Positions 2,768 to 27,073 of a stretch of DNA of 36,295 nucleotides are shown one piece after another (position 1 is the first letter of the stretch; every line of letters starts with the position of its first letter). This stretch comes from a virus. The stretch lies in the IMG/VR virus record IMGVR_UViG_3300027969_000232, positions 1-36,295 of that record. The stretch is one strand, 5' to 3'. Under the pieces are notes generated by a model. The model was not told where the DNA came from and made no database searches. It was given only the letters and a program-made list of their open reading frames with translations. The translations under genes were made by a program, and so were the position numbers.

Positions 2768-3703
2768 ATGGCACTTTCATTCGCAGAAATGAAGAAATCT
2801 CGTCAAAATACACTTGAGTCGTTGACCAAGGAATTGACAAAACTCCAGACGCCCAATGGCGGCGCAGACGATGATAGTCGTTTCTGGAAACCAACTGTTG
2901 ACAAAGCAGGCAACGGTATGGCAACTATTCGCTTCCTACCTCCTATCGCTGGTGAAGATATGCCTTTTGTGCGTATGTTCTCACACGGGTTTAAAGGCCC
3001 GACCGGTTTGTGGTATATCGAGAACTCATTGACTACTCTCGGTAAGAATGATCCTGTTTCAGAATATAACTCTGAATTGTGGAATTCGACCACTGATGAT
3101 GCATCACCCGCTCGTAAACAAGTGCGTGATCAGAAGCGTAAGCTGAACTTCATCTCGAACATTTATGTCGTGAAGGACAGTGCAAATCCTGCAAACGAAG
3201 GCAAGGTATTCTTGTATCAGTATGGCAAGAAAATCTTCGACAAAGTCAACGAAGCAGTTAAGCCTCCTTCACAATTTGAAGATGAAAAACCTATGAACCC
3301 ATTTAATTTGTGGGAAGGTGCAAACTTCAAATTGAAGATTCGTCAAGTTGAAGGTTATCGTAATTATGACAAAAGTGAATTTGAAGCTCCATCACCTTTG
3401 AGCAATGATGACGATGTTCTCGAAACCATTTGGAAGAGTGAATATCCATTGCAAGAATTGGTCGGTCCTGATAAGTTCAAGTCGTATGACGAACTTAAGG
3501 CAAAGCTGGTTCGTGTATTGGGTCTTGATGGAAATCCTATGGTATCGCGTAACAGAACAGCAGAGAACAACTCGTATGATACAAATGTAGAATCTGCACC
3601 TAGTCAGCGAACTGCGACCGCTCCTAAAATTGAATCTTCTTCATTCGCGGATGACGATGATGACAATATGGAGTTTTTCAAGAATCTTGCTGATGGAGAC
3701 TAA
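2768..3703 (+). CDS. 32: Single-stranded DNA-binding protein gp32, 311 aa
   Basis: Clear homologue of T4 gp32 (301 aa): basic N-terminal B domain (SFAEMKKSRQNTLESL), OB-fold core with FRMFSHGFKG-like and WYIENS segments, VVKDSANPANEGKVFLYQYG, FNLWEGANFKLKIRQVEGYRNYDKS, and an acidic C-terminal tail (FADDDDDNMEFFKNLADGD) of the kind that contacts gp59 and the polymerase. It coats single-stranded DNA cooperatively. Start ATG 2768 is chosen because GGAG lies 7 bases upstream and the protein then begins MALSFAEMKK. The T4 zinc ligands (three Cys, one His) are absent: there is no cysteine at all. A strong terminator follows. Confidence 0.96.
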   Translation: MALSFAEMKKSRQNTLESLTKELTKLQTPNGGADDDSRFWKPTVDKAGNGMATIRFLPPIAGEDMPFVRMFSHGFKGPTGLWYIENSLTTLGKNDPVSEYNSELWNSTTDDASPARKQVRDQKRKLNFISNIYVVKDSANPANEGKVFLYQYGKKIFDKVNEAVKPPSQFEDEKPMNPFNLWEGANFKLKIRQVEGYRNYDKSEFEAPSPLSNDDDVLETIWKSEYPLQELVGPDKFKSYDELKAKLVRVLGLDGNPMVSRNRTAENNSYDTNVESAPSQRTATAPKIESSSFADDDDDNMEFFKNLADGD

Positions 3704-3722
3704 TAGTTCAGAAATGAACGTG

Positions 3723-3752
3723 AAGGGAGAGCTTAATTGCTCTCCCTTTTTT
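3723..3752 (+). terminator. Rho-independent terminator after gp32
   Basis: AAGGGAGAGC (3723-3732) and GCTCTCCCTT (3739-3748) form a 10-bp stem with a 6-base loop, followed by a T run (to 3752). It closes the gp32 transcript. The convergent - strand operon ends at 3754, so the stem could also slow transcripts from that side, but no good T run follows in that direction. Confidence 0.92.
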
Positions 3753-3753
3753 A

Positions 3754-5358
3754 TTAAGTAAATATTCCGGAATTTTGAAATATAGTTTGTTCAAATACAG
3801 TTGCCGCAGGATACGGACTATCAGTTCCTGCGGTAGGATAACCAGTTGTTTCACTATTATACATGACAGGTTGCGATTGCACAGGTTTTTGTGATTTTGT
3901 TTTAGTAGGTGCAACTTTTGCTGCCATAAATGTTTTTGATGACAAATCACTCAATGTTTTACCTATAGATGATACCATCGAAGATAACGAAGAACCTATT
4001 TCACTAATACCACTTAATCCCATATTTGCTGACATACCTTTGACAGGTTGATTGCCGTTTAACATACTTTCATGGCTTGAACCTATATTTCCTCCGCCGA
4101 CATTTCCTCCTGTTGTCTTATCATTTTGTGCCGTTTCTTGATTAGGTGGCGAGTAACTAGCATTTTGAGCGACTGCTGGTGAACTAGTTTGTTGTTGAAC
4201 TATTCCCGTATTTTTGAAACGAATTATATCTGAAATAAATTTAATTTCATCTGCTTTTAAAGTTATTTCATCAGTCTTTGAATTTTCATTCATAGAATAT
4301 GATGTTGGTGATGCTGCACCAAAACTTCTTTGACCTTGAAATCCGGATGGAGATATAAATTCTCCAATTGATTTCATGTTGCGAAACAATTTATAAAGAT
4401 CATAAATTGTTTTTAATCCTTTAGCTTCTCCTAAATACGGCACAAAATATGATAATACATTCAACATATCCATTGTAGATATGGGTTCATTAGGCAATGC
4501 ATTATCACCGACCGCAAGCCCAGGAGCTCCTTGATATTTCCACCAATCTTCAGGTACTAATCCTTGCGAAGCAGCTGCGGGTAACTCGCCCGGATGTTCT
4601 TTTTCGGGGGGATTAGGATTATTTGCAGGTGTTTGTGGTTCAGGCTTGAAAATCGGTTTAGCATCTGGTATTAGCGGCTCGGGATTATTCGCAGGTATCA
4701 GTGGTTCGCTTGGACCAGGTTTGAAAATTGGTCTAGAATCAGGTCCCGGCACAGTTATGGGCGGGGTTTCAGGGGCCGGGTTATCTAAAGGTTTAGGAGT
4801 CTCTGCTGGCTGTGCAGGTTCAATAACTGGCTTTGGAACAGGTGCGGGTGCTGTTCCTGGAATAACTGGTTGATCCGCAGGTGCAGGTTCTCCTAATGGT
4901 ATTGGTTTTGTAATAGGGGGTGCTGCAGGTATAGGTGAAGGTTTTGTTATAGGTGCAGGCTGAGCCCCCGGGATTTGTTGCGGCTGTGGCACAAATATTT
5001 CACCAGGAACCGCTTGTCCTTGACGCTGGCCCTGTCTTTGTCTTTGTGGTTCTTCTTCTTCGTTACCTGGTCTATTTCTTCTTCTTTTTCTTCCATCATC
5101 AGATTCATCTTTGCTGTCATCATGATTACAGCAGCAAGGATTCAAAACTTTTACAGGTATATAGCCATTATCATCAAAAAATTTGTCTAAATTAGGCATA
5201 CCGCTAGTTTGATGCTTAAATAGATTTTGATTCTCAGATAAAAAATTGTAAATTAAATCTAATTCTAATGCAGCATTTTCATTGAAAGCATTTGCTTTCA
5301 CTAATTGAGAATTAATATCATCAATCTTGTTGCTTAAATTTTCGTTTTCTTCTTCCAT
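3754..5358 (-). CDS. Pro-rich virion protein, paralogue of its neighbour, 534 aa
   Basis: Residues 1-60 are helical/coiled-coil-like, followed by FFDDNGYIPVKVLNPCC (about 60-76), a charged Arg/Glu/Gln-rich stretch, then a long Pro/Ala/Lys-rich region (about 115-260, recurring PAP, KPIF, NNPEP) that should be extended and flexible. Near residues 362-385 is an EITLKADEIKFISDII segment. The GYIPVKV-NPCC motif and the ITL-A-I-F segment recur in the 703-residue protein encoded just upstream, so the two arose by duplication; this copy lacks the peptidoglycan-degrading domain. The gap between the genes is 11 bases. As last gene of a tail/baseplate operon it is probably a virion or assembly protein; exact role unknown. 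Confidence 0.75.
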   Translation of the reverse strand: MEEENENLSNKIDDINSQLVKANAFNENAALELDLIYNFLSENQNLFKHQTSGMPNLDKFFDDNGYIPVKVLNPCCCNHDDSKDESDDGRKRRRNRPGNEEEEPQRQRQGQRQGQAVPGEIFVPQPQQIPGAQPAPITKPSPIPAAPPITKPIPLGEPAPADQPVIPGTAPAPVPKPVIEPAQPAETPKPLDNPAPETPPITVPGPDSRPIFKPGPSEPLIPANNPEPLIPDAKPIFKPEPQTPANNPNPPEKEHPGELPAAASQGLVPEDWWKYQGAPGLAVGDNALPNEPISTMDMLNVLSYFVPYLGEAKGLKTIYDLYKLFRNMKSIGEFISPSGFQGQRSFGAASPTSYSMNENSKTDEITLKADEIKFISDIIRFKNTGIVQQQTSSPAVAQNASYSPPNQETAQNDKTTGGNVGGGNIGSSHESMLNGNQPVKGMSANMGLSGISEIGSSLSSMVSSIGKTLSDLSSKTFMAAKVAPTKTKSQKPVQSQPVMYNSETTGYPTAGTDSPYPAATVFEQTIFQNSGIFT

Positions 5359-5369
5359 TTAATTACCTA

Positions 5370-7481
5370 TCAAACCCATGGATTGCGTGCTAAAGTAGCA
5401 TCGTCAAGCATGTCAAACATATCATGGAACGCAGCCCATGGTTCATCAACTGGCGGCGCAGATGATTTAACGTTTATGATTGACGCAGAAGAAACAGCAG
5501 GAGCTACTGTCGGTGCTGCCGGAGGTTTATTCAGCTCTAAAGTAGTTGATGCTGATTTTGATGCTATATCAGCATGAGGACTAAATTCATCAGAATTTGA
5601 CGCTAATTTAGTGCCTGGTTTTATTATATCAACTTCACCCCTTTTAAATCCCTCGACTTGATGCATTGCTTTTAGCATCGAATCTCTTTGTTCTGATGAC
5701 AATTGAGATAACAAAGTGTTTGGCGAAACACCTATTGCTGATGCTACGCTATTAATATACGCTTGAGTATTGTTTTCAGAAGGTGGCGCATATCTAGATA
5801 TTGCCTGAGCAATAGTCATTCCTTGATACCCCTTTCCTTCGAACAATAAGGATTCTTGTGCTTTTTCGCCGGTTTCAAAATTTGGAAATATTGCAAATCT
5901 TCCATCAGATCCTATAGCTCCACGTCTGATAGCAAAATCACCGTATTCTATATTCCCTGGATTGTTATTTCTCCAATTTCTAGCGCCAGTTCGTTTTTCA
6001 ATTGTTCCGTCAGCCAATTCAACAACGTTATATCCTGCACCCGCTTCTTGTATTTTAGCAATTGCTGAACCACTATCGCCATATGTCACGCCACCCATTG
6101 ATGGATTGTTTATTGCGCCAGATCCGCCGCCATTCATTGGTATAGCAGATTCTTGAGGATTGAATGATACAGTTGATAAATCGCCGCCCATACTGCCCCC
6201 GTATGAACCCGATGAACCTGATGAAGCATTACTACTCTGATCTATGAACTCAAATTTACCTGCTTCGTATGTGATTTCTTTCGCAACAAAATTGATTTTT
6301 CTTGCAGTAAGTATAGTGTTATCAGTGTTGTCTTTTGTTATACCGTAATTACCTAATGCATTATCAGGTTTTCTGTAACTCATATTCTCTAATACTGGAC
6401 TATCTTCATCACCAAAAACACTAGGATATTTGCCGCCGCCCACTCCACCTTGTCCAGGCATACCCAAATCAGGCATATTCATAAGGGCGCCACGACCGCC
6501 ACCAGAACCGGGAGGTCTAGCATAAGGATTTTCTAAAAATCTAGTTAAACTACTAGGTAGTTTTGGTGTAGATGGAGTCGTAGTTATTGCTCTGGGTGTA
6601 ACGGGTTCTGGTGGGACTCTAGTTATAGTAGGCAATCTTGTTGCAGATTGTGTAGCAGTTGACCCGGGTGCTATCACGGGATTAGTTGTGATCAATGGAG
6701 CAGAACTTACGCTGGGGTTATTTCCTACAACTGCAGGATCTTTTGCAGCAACTACAGTATTGGGAGTTACAGCAGGAGTTGGAACAGTTTGTGTTGATAT
6801 AGCAGCAGGTAATTGACCCACGCTCATTGAAACTCTAGGATCAACAGGCAATGACATTGCATCAGCAGGTGCTGTAACTCGAGTTACAGCAGGAGTTGGA
6901 ACAGTTTGTGTTGATATAGCAGCAGGTAATTGACCCACGCTCATTGAAACTCTAGGATCAACAGGCAATGACATTGCATCAGCAGGTGCTGTAACTTCTT
7001 CTTCAGCAGGATGAAATTTTGAAGCAATATATGCAAGAGCTGGAACAACTGCAGGTATAATATCTGCAAGATATTCTTTGAAACTTTTAGGTTTATCTTT
7101 ATCTTTATCTTTGTTTTTATCTTTATTTGCAGTATTGTCTGTTGTAGATTCTTCATCACAACAAGGATTAATTACCTTGACTGGGATGTATCCATTTTCA
7201 TAAAAATATGTATCTAAAGATGAGACATAAGGAACAGGTCTCATAGTTTTCAATATTTCATAGATGTCATTTAATCTAATGGCACTATCTTCAGAATAAT
7301 CAGTCATCCGTTTAATTTGTGACGATTGATCAGTTAAACGCATTTTGAATATGCCATATGATTGCGCGTCATATGAACTGGAAACTGTATCATCCTTATT
7401 TGAAACAGGTTTAGACGCCGTTGCAGGTTTTGCACGGCGTCCTATTTTTTTATTTTCTGGTGGTATATTATTGTCTGCCAT
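5370..7481 (-). CDS. Virion protein with NNPGNI-type peptidoglycan-degrading domain, 703 aa
   Basis: Order of parts: low-complexity N-terminus; YFYENGYIPVKVINPCC (about 93-109), shared with the 534-residue neighbour; a Lys/Asp tract; a short hydrophobic helix (IIPAVVPALAYIA); a Pro/Thr/Ala-rich linker with a perfect 39-residue tandem repeat (about 162-239); TILTARKINFVAKEI (about 385-400); and near residues 497-620 a domain with RNWRNNNPGNI...RRGAIGSDGRFAIFP, SRYAPPSENNTQAYI and a closing HQVEGF. This domain resembles phage structural transglycosylase/lysozyme proteins, which open the cell wall during DNA entry. T4 carries this activity in gp5; the gp5 here lacks it, so this protein may replace it. 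ATG 7481 lies 2 bases after the gp51-like stop. Catalytic residues are not assigned. Confidence 0.8.
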   Translation of the reverse strand: MADNNIPPENKKIGRRAKPATASKPVSNKDDTVSSSYDAQSYGIFKMRLTDQSSQIKRMTDYSEDSAIRLNDIYEILKTMRPVPYVSSLDTYFYENGYIPVKVINPCCDEESTTDNTANKDKNKDKDKDKPKSFKEYLADIIPAVVPALAYIASKFHPAEEEVTAPADAMSLPVDPRVSMSVGQLPAAISTQTVPTPAVTRVTAPADAMSLPVDPRVSMSVGQLPAAISTQTVPTPAVTPNTVVAAKDPAVVGNNPSVSSAPLITTNPVIAPGSTATQSATRLPTITRVPPEPVTPRAITTTPSTPKLPSSLTRFLENPYARPPGSGGGRGALMNMPDLGMPGQGGVGGGKYPSVFGDEDSPVLENMSYRKPDNALGNYGITKDNTDNTILTARKINFVAKEITYEAGKFEFIDQSSNASSGSSGSYGGSMGGDLSTVSFNPQESAIPMNGGGSGAINNPSMGGVTYGDSGSAIAKIQEAGAGYNVVELADGTIEKRTGARNWRNNNPGNIEYGDFAIRRGAIGSDGRFAIFPNFETGEKAQESLLFEGKGYQGMTIAQAISRYAPPSENNTQAYINSVASAIGVSPNTLLSQLSSEQRDSMLKAMHQVEGFKRGEVDIIKPGTKLASNSDEFSPHADIASKSASTTLELNKPPAAPTVAPAVSSASIINVKSSAPPVDEPWAAFHDMFDMLDDATLARNPWV
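6764..6996. repeat. Perfect 117-bp tandem duplication
   Basis: Bases 6764-6879 and 6881-6996 are identical at an offset of 117 bp, adding 39 residues in frame to the linker of the 703-residue protein. I found no difference between copies, so the duplication is recent or actively homogenised; an assembly artefact cannot be excluded. Confidence 0.92.
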
Positions 7482-7483
7482 AG

Positions 7484-7675
7484 TTATTGAGCACCTGCCG
7501 CCATCTTTTGTTTCTCTTCCAGTTCTTCAAGGTATTTCCTGAGCATATCAAGATAAATATCACGTTCAAAAGGAATCATATTTTCTATATCTTCTAGAGA
7601 ATATTTATGGTGTTGCAGTAGTGCAAAATTGACGTTATAATAATTTTCTAAAGTATTATGATTTAAACTAAGGTA
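7484..7675 (-). CDS. 51: gp51-like baseplate hub assembly frame, read by -1 frameshift, 63 codons
   Basis: This frame runs from the gp26 slippery site to TAA at 7484-7486 and reads YLSLNHNTLENYYNVNFALL..., followed by QHHKYSLEDIENMIPFERD and IYLDMLRKYLEELEEKQ. The NYY-NFALLQHH and ENMIPFERDIY signatures match what I recall of small gp51-type hub assembly proteins in T4-like phages. A TGA lies in frame just upstream, and there is no ATG, GTG or TTG before residue 33, which is past the conserved part. The gp26 frame ends in DFFTLV-stop over T7, so a -1 slip joins the two exactly: gp26 residues 1-235 plus these 63, giving 298 residues. In T4, gp51 acts as a catalyst of hub assembly. Independent start at ATG (residue 33) is possible but would lose most of the motif. 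Confidence 0.7.
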   Translation of the reverse strand, partial: YLSLNHNTLENYYNVNFALLQHHKYSLEDIENMIPFERDIYLDMLRKYLEELEEKQKMAAGAQ

Positions 7676-8379
7676 AAAAAATCAACTAACGATGTCATCA
7701 GAATTTTTCTTTCTGTGCCTTTTGAGTTAGTATATTTTATTTCGTAATTTAAACGTGGCATGTTTAACACGAATTTCCGCATCTTGTCATATGACAAAGA
7801 ATCAAATTCATCTTCTAGATATTGTTGTAGTTCAGCTTTTGGCACATCACGAATTTCAAATATCTCGTCACCTTGAAATATTTTATCGACACAATTTGCA
7901 ATCAGCATATCAAAATACTTGTTCATATCAGTTTGAGTGAACTCATCATCAGTCATAAGTGAAGATGGCGCATATTTCATAACAACAACTATGTCATCAT
8001 TTATTTTAATATTCTTGTCAATATTCTCGGGAAATTTAACTGAAACTTCATCTAAATTAACTTCAAATTCATATGATTTGTCATCTTCTGAATCTATATA
8101 AGAAACCTTAGATATATTGCTGATTGAGTATGCACGAATCTTAATAAACAAATATTCAATGTCGAAAGTTGTTAAACTATCAATATCAATTTTATCGTCC
8201 ATGATACAATTATTGACAACTTGTCTAACTGCAGTTAATGCGTCTCTAGGATCTCCACCGCTTTTTGCCATAAGAAGTATTTTTTCTTCTTTAACAAGCA
8301 TAGGACGAATTTTGATTTTTTTATTTGTTGATGGTATAGTCACATCAAACAGCGGGTGACTAATTTTAGGTAAAGCCAT
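7663..8379 (-). CDS. 26: Baseplate hub assembly protein gp26, 238 aa
   Basis: The opening MALPKISHPLFDVTIPSTNKK, then IRPMLVKEEKILLMAKSGGD, AVRQVVNNCI, DIEYLFIKIRAYSISN and a C-terminal LPRLNYEIKYTN-like stretch fit the T4 baseplate gp26/gp51 family (T4 gp26 has 208 residues, gp51 249). In T4 these act in building the central hub. GGAG sits just upstream of ATG 8379. The last codons (GAT TTT TTT ACC TTA GTT TAA) include a seven-T run in the right register for -1 frameshifting into the gp51-like frame. Whether the name should be gp26 or gp51 depends on the phage; the family is firm. Confidence 0.82.
   Translation of the reverse strand: MALPKISHPLFDVTIPSTNKKIKIRPMLVKEEKILLMAKSGGDPRDALTAVRQVVNNCIMDDKIDIDSLTTFDIEYLFIKIRAYSISNISKVSYIDSEDDKSYEFEVNLDEVSVKFPENIDKNIKINDDIVVVMKYAPSSLMTDDEFTQTDMNKYFDMLIANCVDKIFQGDEIFEIRDVPKAELQQYLEDEFDSLSYDKMRKFVLNMPRLNYEIKYTNSKGTERKILMTSLVDFFTLV
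7675..7681 (-). other. Predicted -1 ribosomal frameshift site (T-TTT-TTT)
   Basis: On the - strand the gp26 frame reads ...GTT GAT TTT TTT ACC TTA GTT TAA. The seven T form an X-XXY-YYZ slippery heptamer in the zero frame. A -1 slip continues as TAC CTT AGT TTA AAT into the start-less gp51-like frame. The gp26 stop is only 10 bases beyond the heptamer. I see no strong downstream stem or pseudoknot. The layout resembles the G/GT chaperone frameshift of other tailed phages. Confidence 0.65.
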
Positions 8380-8398: not shown

Positions 8399-9046
8399 TT
8401 ATTGTGGTCCTATTACAGTAGAACCCATATTCGCAGACGAAACAGAAACACTTTCTGAATACCAATCAGTGTATGTAAATGCTACAGGTATTTTCATATA
8501 ATCGTTTGTATCATTCCAATTTAATTGTATGTCACCCATATCAGTAGGATATGCGTTTCTTAATACTACCTTAATTATTTCATCCGTATTCTCTTTAAAT
8601 ACATGAATTGATATATCAGTTATGTAGTTATCTTTATATGCTAGCTCATATGATCTTGATGAGCCAGTTCCATTAGATTTCAAATTTTTCAAATCGCCAT
8701 CCCGAACATCGAAATTATGGATCATTCTTATCCAATTATAGAAAAATGAATGTATTGCACCTTTACTATCACCCATGAACGTCATTGATACATTATTGAA
8801 AGATGAACTAGAAGGTCTTTTTTCTGTAACACCATAGCCATATCGTCTAATTTGGGTAGTTTGTAGGGAAACACCGGGCAAGTTTGAACTATCACACCAT
8901 AACTCTACGTATCTTGCTGTATTTTTAAGATCAGAATTTCCACTAAATCCTACAGGGTAAGGCATTCTTACAAAAAACTTATTGTTTCGTAAAATGCCGT
9001 TAGCATTCAAATGAGACGTGAAATTTGCTATATTAAATCCAGACAT
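8399..9046 (-). CDS. 54: Tail-tube-fold baseplate protein, gp54-like tube initiator, 215 aa
   Basis: The sequence NKFFVRMPYP...RYVELWCDSSNLPGVSLQT, IRRYGYGVTEKRP, FNNVSMTFMGD, FFYNWIRMIHNFD, YELAYKDNYITDISIHVF and YPTDMGDIQLNWNDTNDYMKIPVAFTYTDWY is typical of the tube-fold family that includes T4 gp54, gp48 and gp19. gp54 sits on gp48 and starts polymerisation of the tail tube. Location beside gp26 and near gp48 favours gp54, although 215 residues is short against 320 in T4. A tail tube (gp19) or tail terminator role is the alternative. ATG 9046 lies 2 bases after the upstream stop. Confidence 0.62.
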   Translation of the reverse strand: MSGFNIANFTSHLNANGILRNNKFFVRMPYPVGFSGNSDLKNTARYVELWCDSSNLPGVSLQTTQIRRYGYGVTEKRPSSSSFNNVSMTFMGDSKGAIHSFFYNWIRMIHNFDVRDGDLKNLKSNGTGSSRSYELAYKDNYITDISIHVFKENTDEIIKVVLRNAYPTDMGDIQLNWNDTNDYMKIPVAFTYTDWYSESVSVSSANMGSTVIGPQ

Positions 9047-25400: not shown

Positions 25401-27073
25401 TTGATTACGGCATTTCAACAGGTGCAGGTTTCATAGACACAACCTCATATACAGGTGATGCGAACGCAGAAACAGTTGCTATAAATGATAGTTTGCCATT
25501 GTCAAGTTTGACTACTAAATACAACTCATTTGAAATTCCTGAAGTTTATACTAAGACAGGAAAATATTATGATTTGATTGGCACACTTGATTTCCGTCCT
25601 TCTGTGAGCAATACAGTATCACCTAATACTACATGGTCTAATGCGCCACTGAACCCATCGAATACAATTAGTTTTGGTGTGACTTCAGATCCCGCAAATG
25701 ATAAAAAATTCCCAATCCCAGGATCAATTTTTAAAACTAAACTTGATTATTATGTCGGTCGTATTGACTCGGTATTCGTTGATCGTGAAGGTGATATATT
25801 TGTTACTAAAGGATCATCGGGATATATTAATAATATTGCAAAAGCAAAAATACCTGTAAAACCAGATTATTCGATGAGATTGAATAATTTAGTTATTCCG
25901 CCATATCCTAATTTACCTATAAATCCTTCGAATACTGTAATTGCTATATTAGATAGAAATATAGCAAATGAAAATAAATCAAATGCTCGCATTGAAAGTA
26001 GAGTTGTCAATGTTCCATTAACTAATGCGAATATTGAGGAACAACAACCCACTGGCTATACTATGAAAGATATTGGAAATCTTGATAGAAGAATTCAGGA
26101 TCTAGAATATTATGTTTCATTGACTTTGTTGGAAAAGGATATTAAAGAAAAAACAATTCCTTCATCATCAACACCTACGTTGTCTAGATTCAAATATGGA
26201 TTTTTTGTTGATGACTTTTCGACTACTAATAATACTGATCTAAATCATAAAGCATATGCAGCTTCTATTCAAAATGATGATGCATTGCCTGAAAAATCAT
26301 TGTTTACATTGAAGAGTAGAGTTGCAGCACTACATCAGGACTATTTTGAATATCCTGCTGTTTCTCAAGTTAACGCAACATTATATACTCCAGTGTTGCC
26401 ACCTAATGGTAATGGTACTGGCAACACTGGAACTGGTAATACTGGAACTGGTAATACTGGAACTGGTAATACTGGAACTGGTAATACTGGTACAGGAAAT
26501 GTTGTTGTTGTTGTTGTCAATACGACACCAATTATATCAAACACATGGTTAACTGTTGCAAACCCATCAACTGTATCACCTGTAACCACAACTAATTTTA
26601 CAATGGCTAATGCGGCAGGTCCTGTAACACTGTATGGTCATTTCTACTCAGGTCATGATGCGATTGAAGTTTATCAAGGAAACACTTTAATAAGAACTTC
26701 ATCAAATAGTTCACAACTTGCTCAATTGACTACTACAGACAAAACGAAGTTATTGTCGAATGTTGTTCCAGGTAAGTGGTTTAATGGAGTGGTATTTGCA
26801 AATTATACTACTGCCGCAAAATCATCTAGCGGATGGAGTGGTAATGCTGTGAATAATTCTTTCAAATTTACATGGGATCATAATCCATCAGGCGCATTGC
26901 AATATACTATTAAAGTTAGATTATTCTCATCAATCTGGAGATATGCAGTAGAATATCCCGGAAGCAATATTACAGTTTCTAATACTGTGACAACTAATGT
27001 GGCTGTTACTCCCACCATATATACAGGGACAATGACAATCACACCACCATCAGTTGATACTAACTGGCGCTAA
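22496..27073 (+). CDS. Giant DUF4815-like baseplate/virion protein, 1525 aa
   Basis: The N-terminus (FNVAPYFDDYNETKDFYKILFRPGVAVQARELNQFQSILQKQIERFGDNIFKRG) is the start I associate with DUF4815-type virion proteins of T4-like cyanophages. Further on come VDPGIAYIDGYRVETKS, YTMKDIGNLDRRIQDLEYYVSLTLLEKDI and FVDDFS, typical for that family. One GTGT-F-like module sits at 24718-24920. Residues 1307-1337 are a low-complexity linker of GTGNT repeats plus six Val, after which a separate C-terminal beta domain (LYGHFYSGHDAIEVYQGNTLIRT) begins. It is thought to sit at the baseplate rim, perhaps holding fibres; the role is inferred. Ribosome-binding site AGGG near 22490. Confidence 0.78.
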   Translation: MTLETNFNVAPYFDDYNETKDFYKILFRPGVAVQARELNQFQSILQKQIERFGDNIFKRGTIIDGCNFNFYSSYQYAKLVDQQKDGLTAIPSNYVGYFAKSVNPSIGVNAYIINYADGFVSTYPDLKTIYLNYINSGANGSTNTFTAGETISIYDPNYPLLGVAANNGGLGFSNSDSVVISPALIVNVSSGTFTNTEYLYQPFTGANVQIIGIDTTTLADTQQVILRVKPRTVDLIDSTAKSTRWTISNSHPVRNASASVTADVEGIIGTDASAIIVTDSAGKVTDVTITSLGSGYETLPYVTVKSANNSSGLSTLNLQPRNYIANVQISTLPNSIGNGYAFAVGDGIVYQKGYFSKVTPQTVIVSKYSQTPDAVVVGFNTAESIVDSNIDTSLLDNAQGTENENAPGSNRLKLTPELMIASTADAAANDNFFSLVEWSEGRPYKQNQQTAYNKINDEMARRTSDESGDYVINKFLVTTRSPANSSLEGNTFSVLVDPGIAYIDGYRVETKSNYTINIKKGNDYRSVNNHAVTLNYGNYIRIKEVGGLFQYSTGDIIKLYDTAKNFISNTAAAAIGNTANVGTQIGTARIRSMLPYSGTVGTADSTYKLYLFDVNMNLGKNFRDVRSVYYDGTNKGIADVVTKYDALVGKDTAIIEETANSTLVFNSGAYSVKSTANSTYNYRTIDQNISIANSGSLTKDISSISGEYYTFVGAAQVSNLQDMYLVPTSAGLVATLFANGDVSVNTTSPNVVGTSTYFTNDFQPGDFVYISNGSSNSIKRIVSITNNTLMVLDSNTSYANASNKVYRYFPKNVPISMGVRNVPGQYSHTGNVDANGNILTIKFKHANNTDMTFNAVGSTTASLGVEIQRRGVNSLTVNARRSAYVKLRLANVAGSNIGPWCIGVPNAFRLRSVFVGNSTVNATGFPDAIDDFYIDHNQTADYNGLSYLYKTPGSSLNLNASNDYLLVKFDYGISTGAGFIDTTSYTGDANAETVAINDSLPLSSLTTKYNSFEIPEVYTKTGKYYDLIGTLDFRPSVSNTVSPNTTWSNAPLNPSNTISFGVTSDPANDKKFPIPGSIFKTKLDYYVGRIDSVFVDREGDIFVTKGSSGYINNIAKAKIPVKPDYSMRLNNLVIPPYPNLPINPSNTVIAILDRNIANENKSNARIESRVVNVPLTNANIEEQQPTGYTMKDIGNLDRRIQDLEYYVSLTLLEKDIKEKTIPSSSTPTLSRFKYGFFVDDFSTTNNTDLNHKAYAASIQNDDALPEKSLFTLKSRVAALHQDYFEYPAVSQVNATLYTPVLPPNGNGTGNTGTGNTGTGNTGTGNTGTGNTGTGNVVVVVVNTTPIISNTWLTVANPSTVSPVTTTNFTMANAAGPVTLYGHFYSGHDAIEVYQGNTLIRTSSNSSQLAQLTTTDKTKLLSNVVPGKWFNGVVFANYTTAAKSSSGWSGNAVNNSFKFTWDHNPSGALQYTIKVRLFSSIWRYAVEYPGSNITVSNTVTTNVAVTPTIYTGTMTITPPSVDTNWR
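26414..26518 (+). repeat. 15-bp GTGNT codon repeat plus Val-codon run
   Basis: Five units of 15 bp (26414-26488) encode Gly-Thr-Gly-Asn-Thr; units 2-5 are identical and unit 1 differs at third codon positions. A shorter GTGN unit follows, then five GTT codons and one GTC. It makes a flexible linker between the DUF4815-like body and the last domain. Such perfect repeats vary in copy number easily by slippage. Confidence 0.93.

Follow-up and report, generated by a model that had tools for sequence, protein, structure and literature searches.

A predicted −1 ribosomal frameshift joins gp26 and gp51, the apparent tail-assembly chaperones of a T4-like environmental phage

Introduction

How is a reading frame translated when it has no start codon ahead of its conserved part? 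The question is raised by a virus fragment of 36,295 bases that carries T4-type baseplate and tail genes (the whole stretch analysed is called the window here), in which a gp51-like frame overlaps the end of gene 26 in a different register. In T4, gp26 and gp51 are described as hub assembly chaperones, and gp51 is listed as essential with unknown function (Leiman et al. 2010; PMC3004832). We find that this T4-like (exo-T4) environmental phage very probably makes two tail-assembly chaperones from one gene by a −1 frameshift.

Results and Discussion

Slip site and reading frames

The features at the end of gp26 are as follows.

7663..8379, minus strand: gp26, the predicted short chaperone form (like G or TAC-N), 238 aa; PF12322, phrog_150 and AlphaFold model
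7682..7684, minus strand: TGA that opens the −1 frame and abuts the heptamer
7675..7681, minus strand: slippery heptamer T_TTT_TTT in the gp26 frame, in the X_XXY_YYZ register
7484..7681, minus strand: gp51-like −1 frame (two Phe codons, 63 further codons and TAA), the predicted C-terminal extension of the long form

The minus strand from 7690 to 7663 reads G TTA GTT GAT TTT TTT ACC TTA GTT TAA. In the −1 frame the sequence is TGA TTT TTT TAC CTT AGT TTA AAT, and this frame ends with the TAA at 7486–7484. The original prediction had placed a canonical slippery heptamer in the right register at the end of gp26, and T_TTT_TTT at 7681–7675 indeed lies in the X_XXY_YYZ arrangement. It had also described the gp51-like frame as stopped by a TGA just upstream and without a usable start ahead of its conserved motif. 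Both points are borne out: the TGA (7684–7682) abuts the heptamer, and the first ATG, GTG or TTG of the frame is an ATG 86 nt past the first base of the gp26 stop codon, within the conserved region. Because the −1 frame opens at a TGA that abuts the slip site, ribosomes translating gp26 can switch into it at this point or later, but not before. The predicted long form has 235 residues through Phe-Phe plus 63, and the earlier sizes of 298 residues for gp26-gp51 and 238 for gp26 are correct.

Heptamers were counted in 26 of the 29 listed ORFs of the window, three overlapping ORFs being excluded. Among the 10,942 codon positions there are four in-frame T_TTT_TTN and 34 in-frame classical heptamers, and the one in gp26 is the sole heptamer at most 40 nt from the end of its own ORF, which speaks for more than a chance occurrence. 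The seven T are also present in the separate contigs L002 (gp26 100% identical), L003 (99%) and L004–L006 (79–80%), which makes a read error in one assembly very unlikely.

Conservation in relatives

We collected 302 loci. They come from IMG/VR by gp26 (72) and by gp51 (the best 80 of 202), from a T4 gp51 query (10), a T4 gp26 query (6) and a 12-member gp26 alignment query (the best 80 of 596), and from genome contigs (37), named phage regions (16) and the window. Several contigs are present twice, and lineages near the query are over-represented since the best 80 of 202 and the best 80 of 596 loci were used. Three loci without a gp26 match, three with a cut gp26 and 18 without a nearby gp51 were excluded. 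The last group is made of 15 T4-type entries (12 genomes), L011, L236 and L300 (masked); L011 and L236 are contigs that end soon after gp26, and the heptamer is present in both.

In all 278 loci having both parts, the window included, the gp51 frame is −1 relative to gp26. T_TTT_TTN stands in the gp26 frame in 277 of them, the single exception being L283 with G_TTT_TTT. One of the six search peptides of the gp51-based IMG/VR search spans the Phe-Phe itself; when the loci from that search are left out, T_TTT_TTN is in frame in 197 of 198. The G_TTT_TTT of L283 resembles the GTTTTT motif given for relatives of phage Adele (PMC12846349).

Dereplication at 85% nucleotide identity left 196 loci. 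The first Phe codon is TTT in every one, and the codon before it ends in T in 195. The second slip codon is TTT in 108, TTC in 81, TTA in 6 and TTG in 1, giving the heptamers TTTTTTT (107), TTTTTTC (81), TTTTTTA (6), TTTTTTG (1) and GTTTTTT (1). Six T are held and the last base varies, as in an X_XXY_YYZ site whose Z is unconstrained. The Phe codons in the rest of these gp26 genes are 1524 TTT and 692 TTC. A codon alignment of 195 of the 196 loci (one omitted) gave TTT/TTC counts of 151/24, 84/90, 122/54 and 77/110 at other conserved Phe columns, compared with 195/0 at the slip column. Probabilities on the 196-locus codon counts, such as 1e-32, treat the loci as independent, which they are not. 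In seven of the 196 loci the second codon is Leu (TTA or TTG) and the six T are kept. The gp26 of RHph_I34, for example, ends in Asp-Phe-Leu-His with T_TTT_TTG, so that the residue is changed and the base pattern kept.

The original prediction looked for a conserved run of seven T and a missing start codon in relatives, and took relatives with a normal ATG as evidence against a frameshift. The conserved element turned out to be six T: the run is six long in 88 of the 196 loci, seven in 77, eight in 24 and nine in 6 (L283 uncounted). The −1 frame opens at most 36 nt upstream of the slip in 174 loci. From this opening to a point 31 nt beyond where the slip site starts, 76 loci have no ATG, GTG or TTG and 125 have no ATG. 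Relatives with an ATG in the −1 frame over this stretch do occur (71 of 196), yet all 71 keep the six T, and the frameshift is not refuted by them.

The slip arrangement was found in 12 named phages, the number checked for it against 578 phage records that match gp26. They include the Kyanoviridae S-PM2, S-CREM1, P-SSM3, ME01, S-CAM4 and HTVC008M, together with phiM12 (Emdodecavirus), RHph_I34 (Pootjesviridae) and Sf-CH11 (no family in the record). Within the Straboviridae it is present in PC-Liy1 (Schizotequatrovirus), Aeromonas phage 65 (Ishigurovirus) and LPCS28 (Nanhuvirus). Many matches among L266–L302 are on contigs whose labels assign them to MAGs of marine bacteria and archaea. These contigs look like phage binned with hosts, and the host labels are therefore untrustworthy.

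T4-type genomes as a natural control

In T4 itself, gp26 (208 aa) and gp51 (249 aa) are encoded by two divergent genes without a slip site. Both proteins match the whole PF12322 profile (E 8.8e-64 and 3.9e-52, respectively), and they share 20% identity over a 161-column alignment (E 2e-6). T4 gp51 consists of the PF12322 domain and a C-terminal extension that matches phrog_634, and T4 gp26 is without this extension. By this comparison the two are paralogues, which would correspond to the short and long forms. The T4 genes and the window thus have PF12322 in common, and the C-terminal part of T4 gp51 is homologous to the −1 frame of the window; the difference is that T4 has two genes, whereas the window has one gene plus a −1 frame.

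The end of T4 gp26 reads GAG TTC TTT GAG TTA CTA TAA, in which Glu-Phe-Phe is kept and the heptamer is absent. The heptamer was found in none of the 14 T4-type genomes with a readable gp26 end, in which gp51 is its own full gene. These are the 12 genomes of the locus set plus Aeromonas phage 25 and Proteus phage Pm5461 (last 12 codons). In one T4-type IMG/VR locus (L178, 3001–3758), gp51 is split by a one-base frame change into ORFs at 3001–3363 and 3387–3758, which may be an error or a real break.

Protein identity and fold

The gp26 of the window matches PF12322 with an E-value of 1.2e-48 (166.1 bits against a cut-off of 24.5) and phrog_150 with 1.4e-51; T4_baseplate is its only Pfam match at E up to 0.1. 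The gp51-like frame had been said to have a well-preserved protein pattern, and it matches phrog_634 ("baseplate hub assembly catalyst") with an E-value of 2.8e-26 in a library without cut-offs. It also matches the C-terminus of phrog_150 (231–280; E 6.1e-9).

An AlphaFold2 model of gp26 built with 85 relatives has a mean pLDDT of 89. The closest VIA-align neighbours of its residues 1–96 are 3FGX (Z 8.3), 2OB9 (Z 7.8) and 3KLU (Z 6.9), followed by one at Z 4.7 and then lower ones; according to the tool's own note, a Z near 8 can mean a common arrangement. The text of PMC9603447 names all three as phage tail assembly chaperones, and its table gives 3FGX and 3KLU as uncharacterized. 2OB9 is the HK97 tail assembly chaperone, and the gp26 model matches the chaperone fold as in HK97 gp13 with a moderate Z. 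A Foldseek comparison of the gp26 model with the PDB returned nothing at E < 0.001. 2OB9 came only fourth (E 0.51, probability 0.91), so the structural match, though good, is moderate. Among predicted viral proteins the model has 64 matches at E up to 0.001, and the named top ones are mostly baseplate hub proteins. A sequence search of solved structures gave weak matches for gp26 (best E 0.22), and with T4 gp51 nothing was found up to E 1. For the model of a T4-type gp51 (pLDDT 82, 8 sequences), VIA-align listed no chaperone (best Z 4.9) and Foldseek had none among the 50 matches listed. Judged from its model, gp26 looks like a tail-assembly chaperone. The original prediction had drawn a parallel to the G/GT chaperone frameshifts; the parallel is supported but was put too weakly, as gp26 and gp51 appear to be the T4-type tail-assembly chaperones themselves.

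Stimulatory elements around the slip site

Pairing with the anti-Shine–Dalgarno (anti-SD) sequence was compared with synonymous codon permutations (40 permutations). In the relatives it peaks in 7-nt windows that start 14–18 nt upstream of the heptamer, with a best z of −12.8. Of the 196 loci, 86 have an SD-like motif within the 17 nt tested (38.8 expected, sd 4.8). Where a Glu-Gly motif is encoded, the Glu codon is GAG in 67 of 88 cases, compared with 686 of the 2573 Glu codons found in the rest of those genes. By an energy threshold, 100 of the 196 loci have an SD-like sequence. Where the stop lies 0–1 codons past the slip, it is present in 90 of 121 loci; where the stop lies three codons past it, as in the group of the window, the number is 6 of 62. 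The cut-offs (−5 kcal/mol for SD, −8 kcal/mol for the hairpin) and the grouping by stop distance were chosen after seeing the data. The window itself has no SD-like match approximately 10 nt upstream of the heptamer. Synechococcus phage S-PM2 (L155, 3690–3755) carries a GGAGGG box that ends 9 nt before the heptamer and a 14-bp hairpin that begins 9 nt after it, a compact dnaX-like signal. Of the two parts of a dnaX-type signal, an upstream SD and a downstream hairpin, the window has neither, whereas its relatives carry such elements.

Downstream, the 52 nt that begin 4 nt past the heptamer fold with a mean energy of −7.72 kcal/mol over the 196 loci, compared within each locus with −4.07 for synonymous nulls (sd of the null mean 0.13), and 79 loci lie below all 20 of their nulls. 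Nine control offsets, one of them partly overlapping, gave z values of −2.0 to −8.8 against the synonymous null, and a further overlapping offset gave −12.5. Other regions thus also fold better than the null, and part of the downstream z of −28 is general. With dinucleotide shuffles the downstream z was at most −1.0 on average (random 90 of the 196 loci).

A 9-bp stem that starts 7 nt after the heptamer and closes a 38-nt loop occurs repeatedly in the window's group. All nine pairs form in 31 of the 62 loci, against 0.6 expected from synonymous codons, and eight or nine pairs form in 41 (4.1 expected). When 11 loci with the stop two codons after the slip were added to give a 73-locus alignment, 80.5% of the stem cells paired, compared with at most 39% when the stem was slid. 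The covariation score was 0.233; shuffled alignments gave 0.155, with none of 500 reaching the observed value, and slid versions stayed at or below 0.110. Of the five measures on this alignment, two did not exceed the shuffles. The first is the number of pairs with changes on both sides, five against a shuffled mean of 4.8 (reached in 305 of 500 shuffles, and six in one slid version), and the second is the number of further pair types, 19 (reached in 52 of 500). RNAalifold predicted no consensus structure for the 73 downstream regions. The stem was first found by eye and then tested on overlapping sequences, which makes its support partly circular, and the synonymous-codon null and the slid controls are the safer evidence. 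In the window the arms of this stem fall at the following positions.

7659..7667, minus strand: position of the 5′ arm of the relatives' 9-bp stem, degenerate here
7612..7620, minus strand: position of the 3′ arm of the relatives' 9-bp stem, degenerate here

Four of the nine pairs (7659–7667 with 7612–7620) can form in the window and four or five in its near relatives. The 52 nt tested fold at 0 kcal/mol in the window, with no stable stem-loop, and Rfam gave no match there at gathering scores. Two sub-threshold Rfam matches elsewhere, in six loci, were taken as chance.

As judged from these sequence comparisons, both an SD-like sequence upstream and RNA structure downstream are under selection in the relatives. 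The SD, the hairpin and the 9-bp stem are all missing in 33 of the 196 loci, the window among them. Stimulators cannot be claimed for the window, which has no SD, hairpin or intact stem; slipping there may be infrequent, or its rate may depend on the T7 run alone. We lean slightly towards a joint reading in which the stimulators are lineage-specific. An SD-like GAGGG box ending approximately 8–9 nt upstream would serve cyanophage- and pelagiphage-like lineages, and the covarying 9-bp stem would serve the wider lineage of the window. The window's subclade would have lost both and use a bare T7, and the T4 branch would have dropped the slip by having two genes. The result would be a natural series from fully stimulated to no slip around one chaperone ratio. 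What most merits specialist attention is that relatives show selection on stimulators which the window's subclade lacks.

Mechanism and alternatives

The original prediction of a −1 frameshift joining gp26 and gp51 is strongly supported by the offset of −1 in 278 of 278 loci, the heptamer in 277 of 278 and the chaperone-like gp26 model. In the mechanism we propose, most ribosomes would halt at the TAA of gp26 and give the 238-residue short form. A minority would slip back by one base with both Phe tRNAs on T_TTT_TTT, continue in the −1 frame and give the 298-residue gp26-gp51. If the division of labour is like that of lambda gpG/gpGT, coating of the tape measure protein would fall to the shared domain and recruitment of tail tube subunits to the gp51 extension, with the slip setting the ratio of the short and long forms. 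The register, the missing start and the conservation are read directly from the sequence, and to these is added the resemblance of the gp26 model to chaperones; that the slip occurs, its rate and the division of labour are what we infer.

One alternative, within translation, is that gp51 is a separate gene with its own start and that the T run merely encodes Phe-Phe. A separate gp51 is annotated in S-PM2, S-CREM1, P-SSM3, phiM12, ME01 and Sf-CH11, among others, and in the 71 relatives with an early ATG separate initiation may act as an extra route. For the window it fails because there is no ATG, GTG or TTG ahead of the conserved region. The protein does not explain the third-base constraint on the six T, the seven relatives with Leu as the second codon still keep them, and the heptamer is absent where gp51 is a full gene of its own (0 of 14 T4-type genomes with a readable gp26 end). 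We regard a separate start as very improbable. The same low probability is given to slippage of RNA polymerase on the T run, by which a minority of the mRNAs would be frame-changed. The seven T of the window would suit it, and UUUUUUU is under-represented in E. coli genes, for which transcriptional slippage is named as one possible reason (PMC4066793). However, 88 of the 196 relatives have only six T, and the X_XXY_YYZ register, which polymerase slippage does not need, is kept. The SD-like sequence and downstream RNA structure selected in relatives point to the ribosome, and together with the 88 loci with six T they make polymerase slippage unlikely.

A plain gene fusion or a broken gene, with one T more or fewer in the true genome, would need an error in the run. 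Homopolymers are error-prone, and gp51 of the T4-type L178 does have a one-base break. Against this, near-identical separate contigs (L002 and L003) carry the same run, and an offset of −1 in all 278 loci with both parts makes a sequencing error very unlikely; this explanation has almost no probability left.

Relation to known systems

The original prediction knew of no description of such a frameshift for T4-type proteins, and on this point it appears to be overtaken. A 2025 paper (PMC12846349) attributes to Vladimirov et al. 2022 the finding of poly-T frameshift signals in chaperone genes of T4-like phages, and the PRFect paper (PMC10885494) cites the same work for the fused long gene that accompanies a short one in some T4-like phages. 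The work itself (Vladimirov, Gautam, Davidson 2022, Virology 566:9–15) by its title identifies T4-like tail assembly chaperone genes. From the T4 matches to PF12322 and phrog_634, we infer that these genes are 26 and 51. Going by the citing papers' accounts, we regard the basic finding as already known, with the window as a further example. The poly-T −1 signals reported in PMC12846349 are common to both systems, and the window differs in being an uncultivated phage fragment. The principle is thus apparently not new, and what the window clearly adds is a new example of a system that seems to be in print already. In the parts of the literature searched, we found no description of SD-like or hairpin stimulators at a T4-type chaperone slip site. 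The words stem-loop, hairpin and Shine-Dalgarno have no occurrence in the text of PMC12846349 as consulted.

Many tailed phages obtain a short and a long chaperone from one gene by a slip of one base. In lambda, a low-level −1 slip near the 3′ end yields gpGT, which shares its N-terminal part with the short gpG (PMC5009743), and the arrangement predicted for the window is the same in its short form, the place of the slip and the N-terminally shared long form. It differs in that the only Pfam match of gp26 at E up to 0.1 is T4_baseplate. The lambda heptamer also differs from T_TTT_TTT. A 2016 review lists T4 as an exception to the G/GT rule, which is true of T4 itself and not of these relatives. 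In phage Adele and in the Vandenendeviridae and Andersonviridae, a −1 frameshift with a GTTTTT motif close to where the short form ends is conserved (PMC12846349). The Adele locus, as described there, also slips directly before the tape measure gene, in other phage families.

Sullivan et al. 2010 (PMC3037559) report that gp51 of cyanophages and marine vibriophages is without its first approximately 200 residues, and the word frameshift has no occurrence in the text of that paper as consulted. Our results suggest that cyanophage gp51 is mis-annotated and that the "missing" residues are those of gp26, from which the ribosome would arrive by frameshift. The gene models of many deposited genomes would then have to be revised, given the 578 phage records that match gp26. 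The frameshift is probably how marine and freshwater T4 relatives make the chaperone pair that in T4 is two genes. The locus also lets the slip, the stimulators and the ratio be compared across lineages.

Gene neighbourhood

In the classic (lambda) order, the chaperone pair has the tail tube gene on one side and the tape measure gene on the other. The flanking genes of the window are as follows.

8399..9046, minus strand: tail tube gene, directly upstream of gp26; phrog_45 (E 4.8e-36) and PF23849 (E 1.6e-9)
5370..7481, minus strand: tape-measure-like gene, directly downstream, 703 aa, with a lysozyme-like stretch

The minus-strand order is tail tube (9046–8399), gp26 (8379–7663), gp51-like frame (7681–7484) and tape-measure-like gene (7481–5370). 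The tape-measure-like gene matches phrog_873, an endolysin profile (E 4.9e-24, residues 493–629), and phrog_2276, tail length tape measure (E 2.2e-18, residues 490–614). Both profiles match the same lysozyme-like stretch, and the tape-measure reading therefore leans on position, which makes the classic order likely for the window rather than established. An annotated tape-measure-like gene is found at this place in phiM12 and HTVC008M, with one small gene between.

The tape-measure-like gene contains an exact tandem duplication at 6764–6996 (117-bp unit, 2.0 copies, 100% match), which could be real variation or an assembly artefact. This gene and the neighbouring minus-strand ORF at 3754–5358 have the N-terminal motif NGYIPVKV.NPCC in common, which suggests from sequence that the two are related, perhaps as paralogues. 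Further along the window, at 26413–26490, approximately five copies of a 15-bp unit encode Gly-Asn-Thr repeats in an ORF of 1525 residues.
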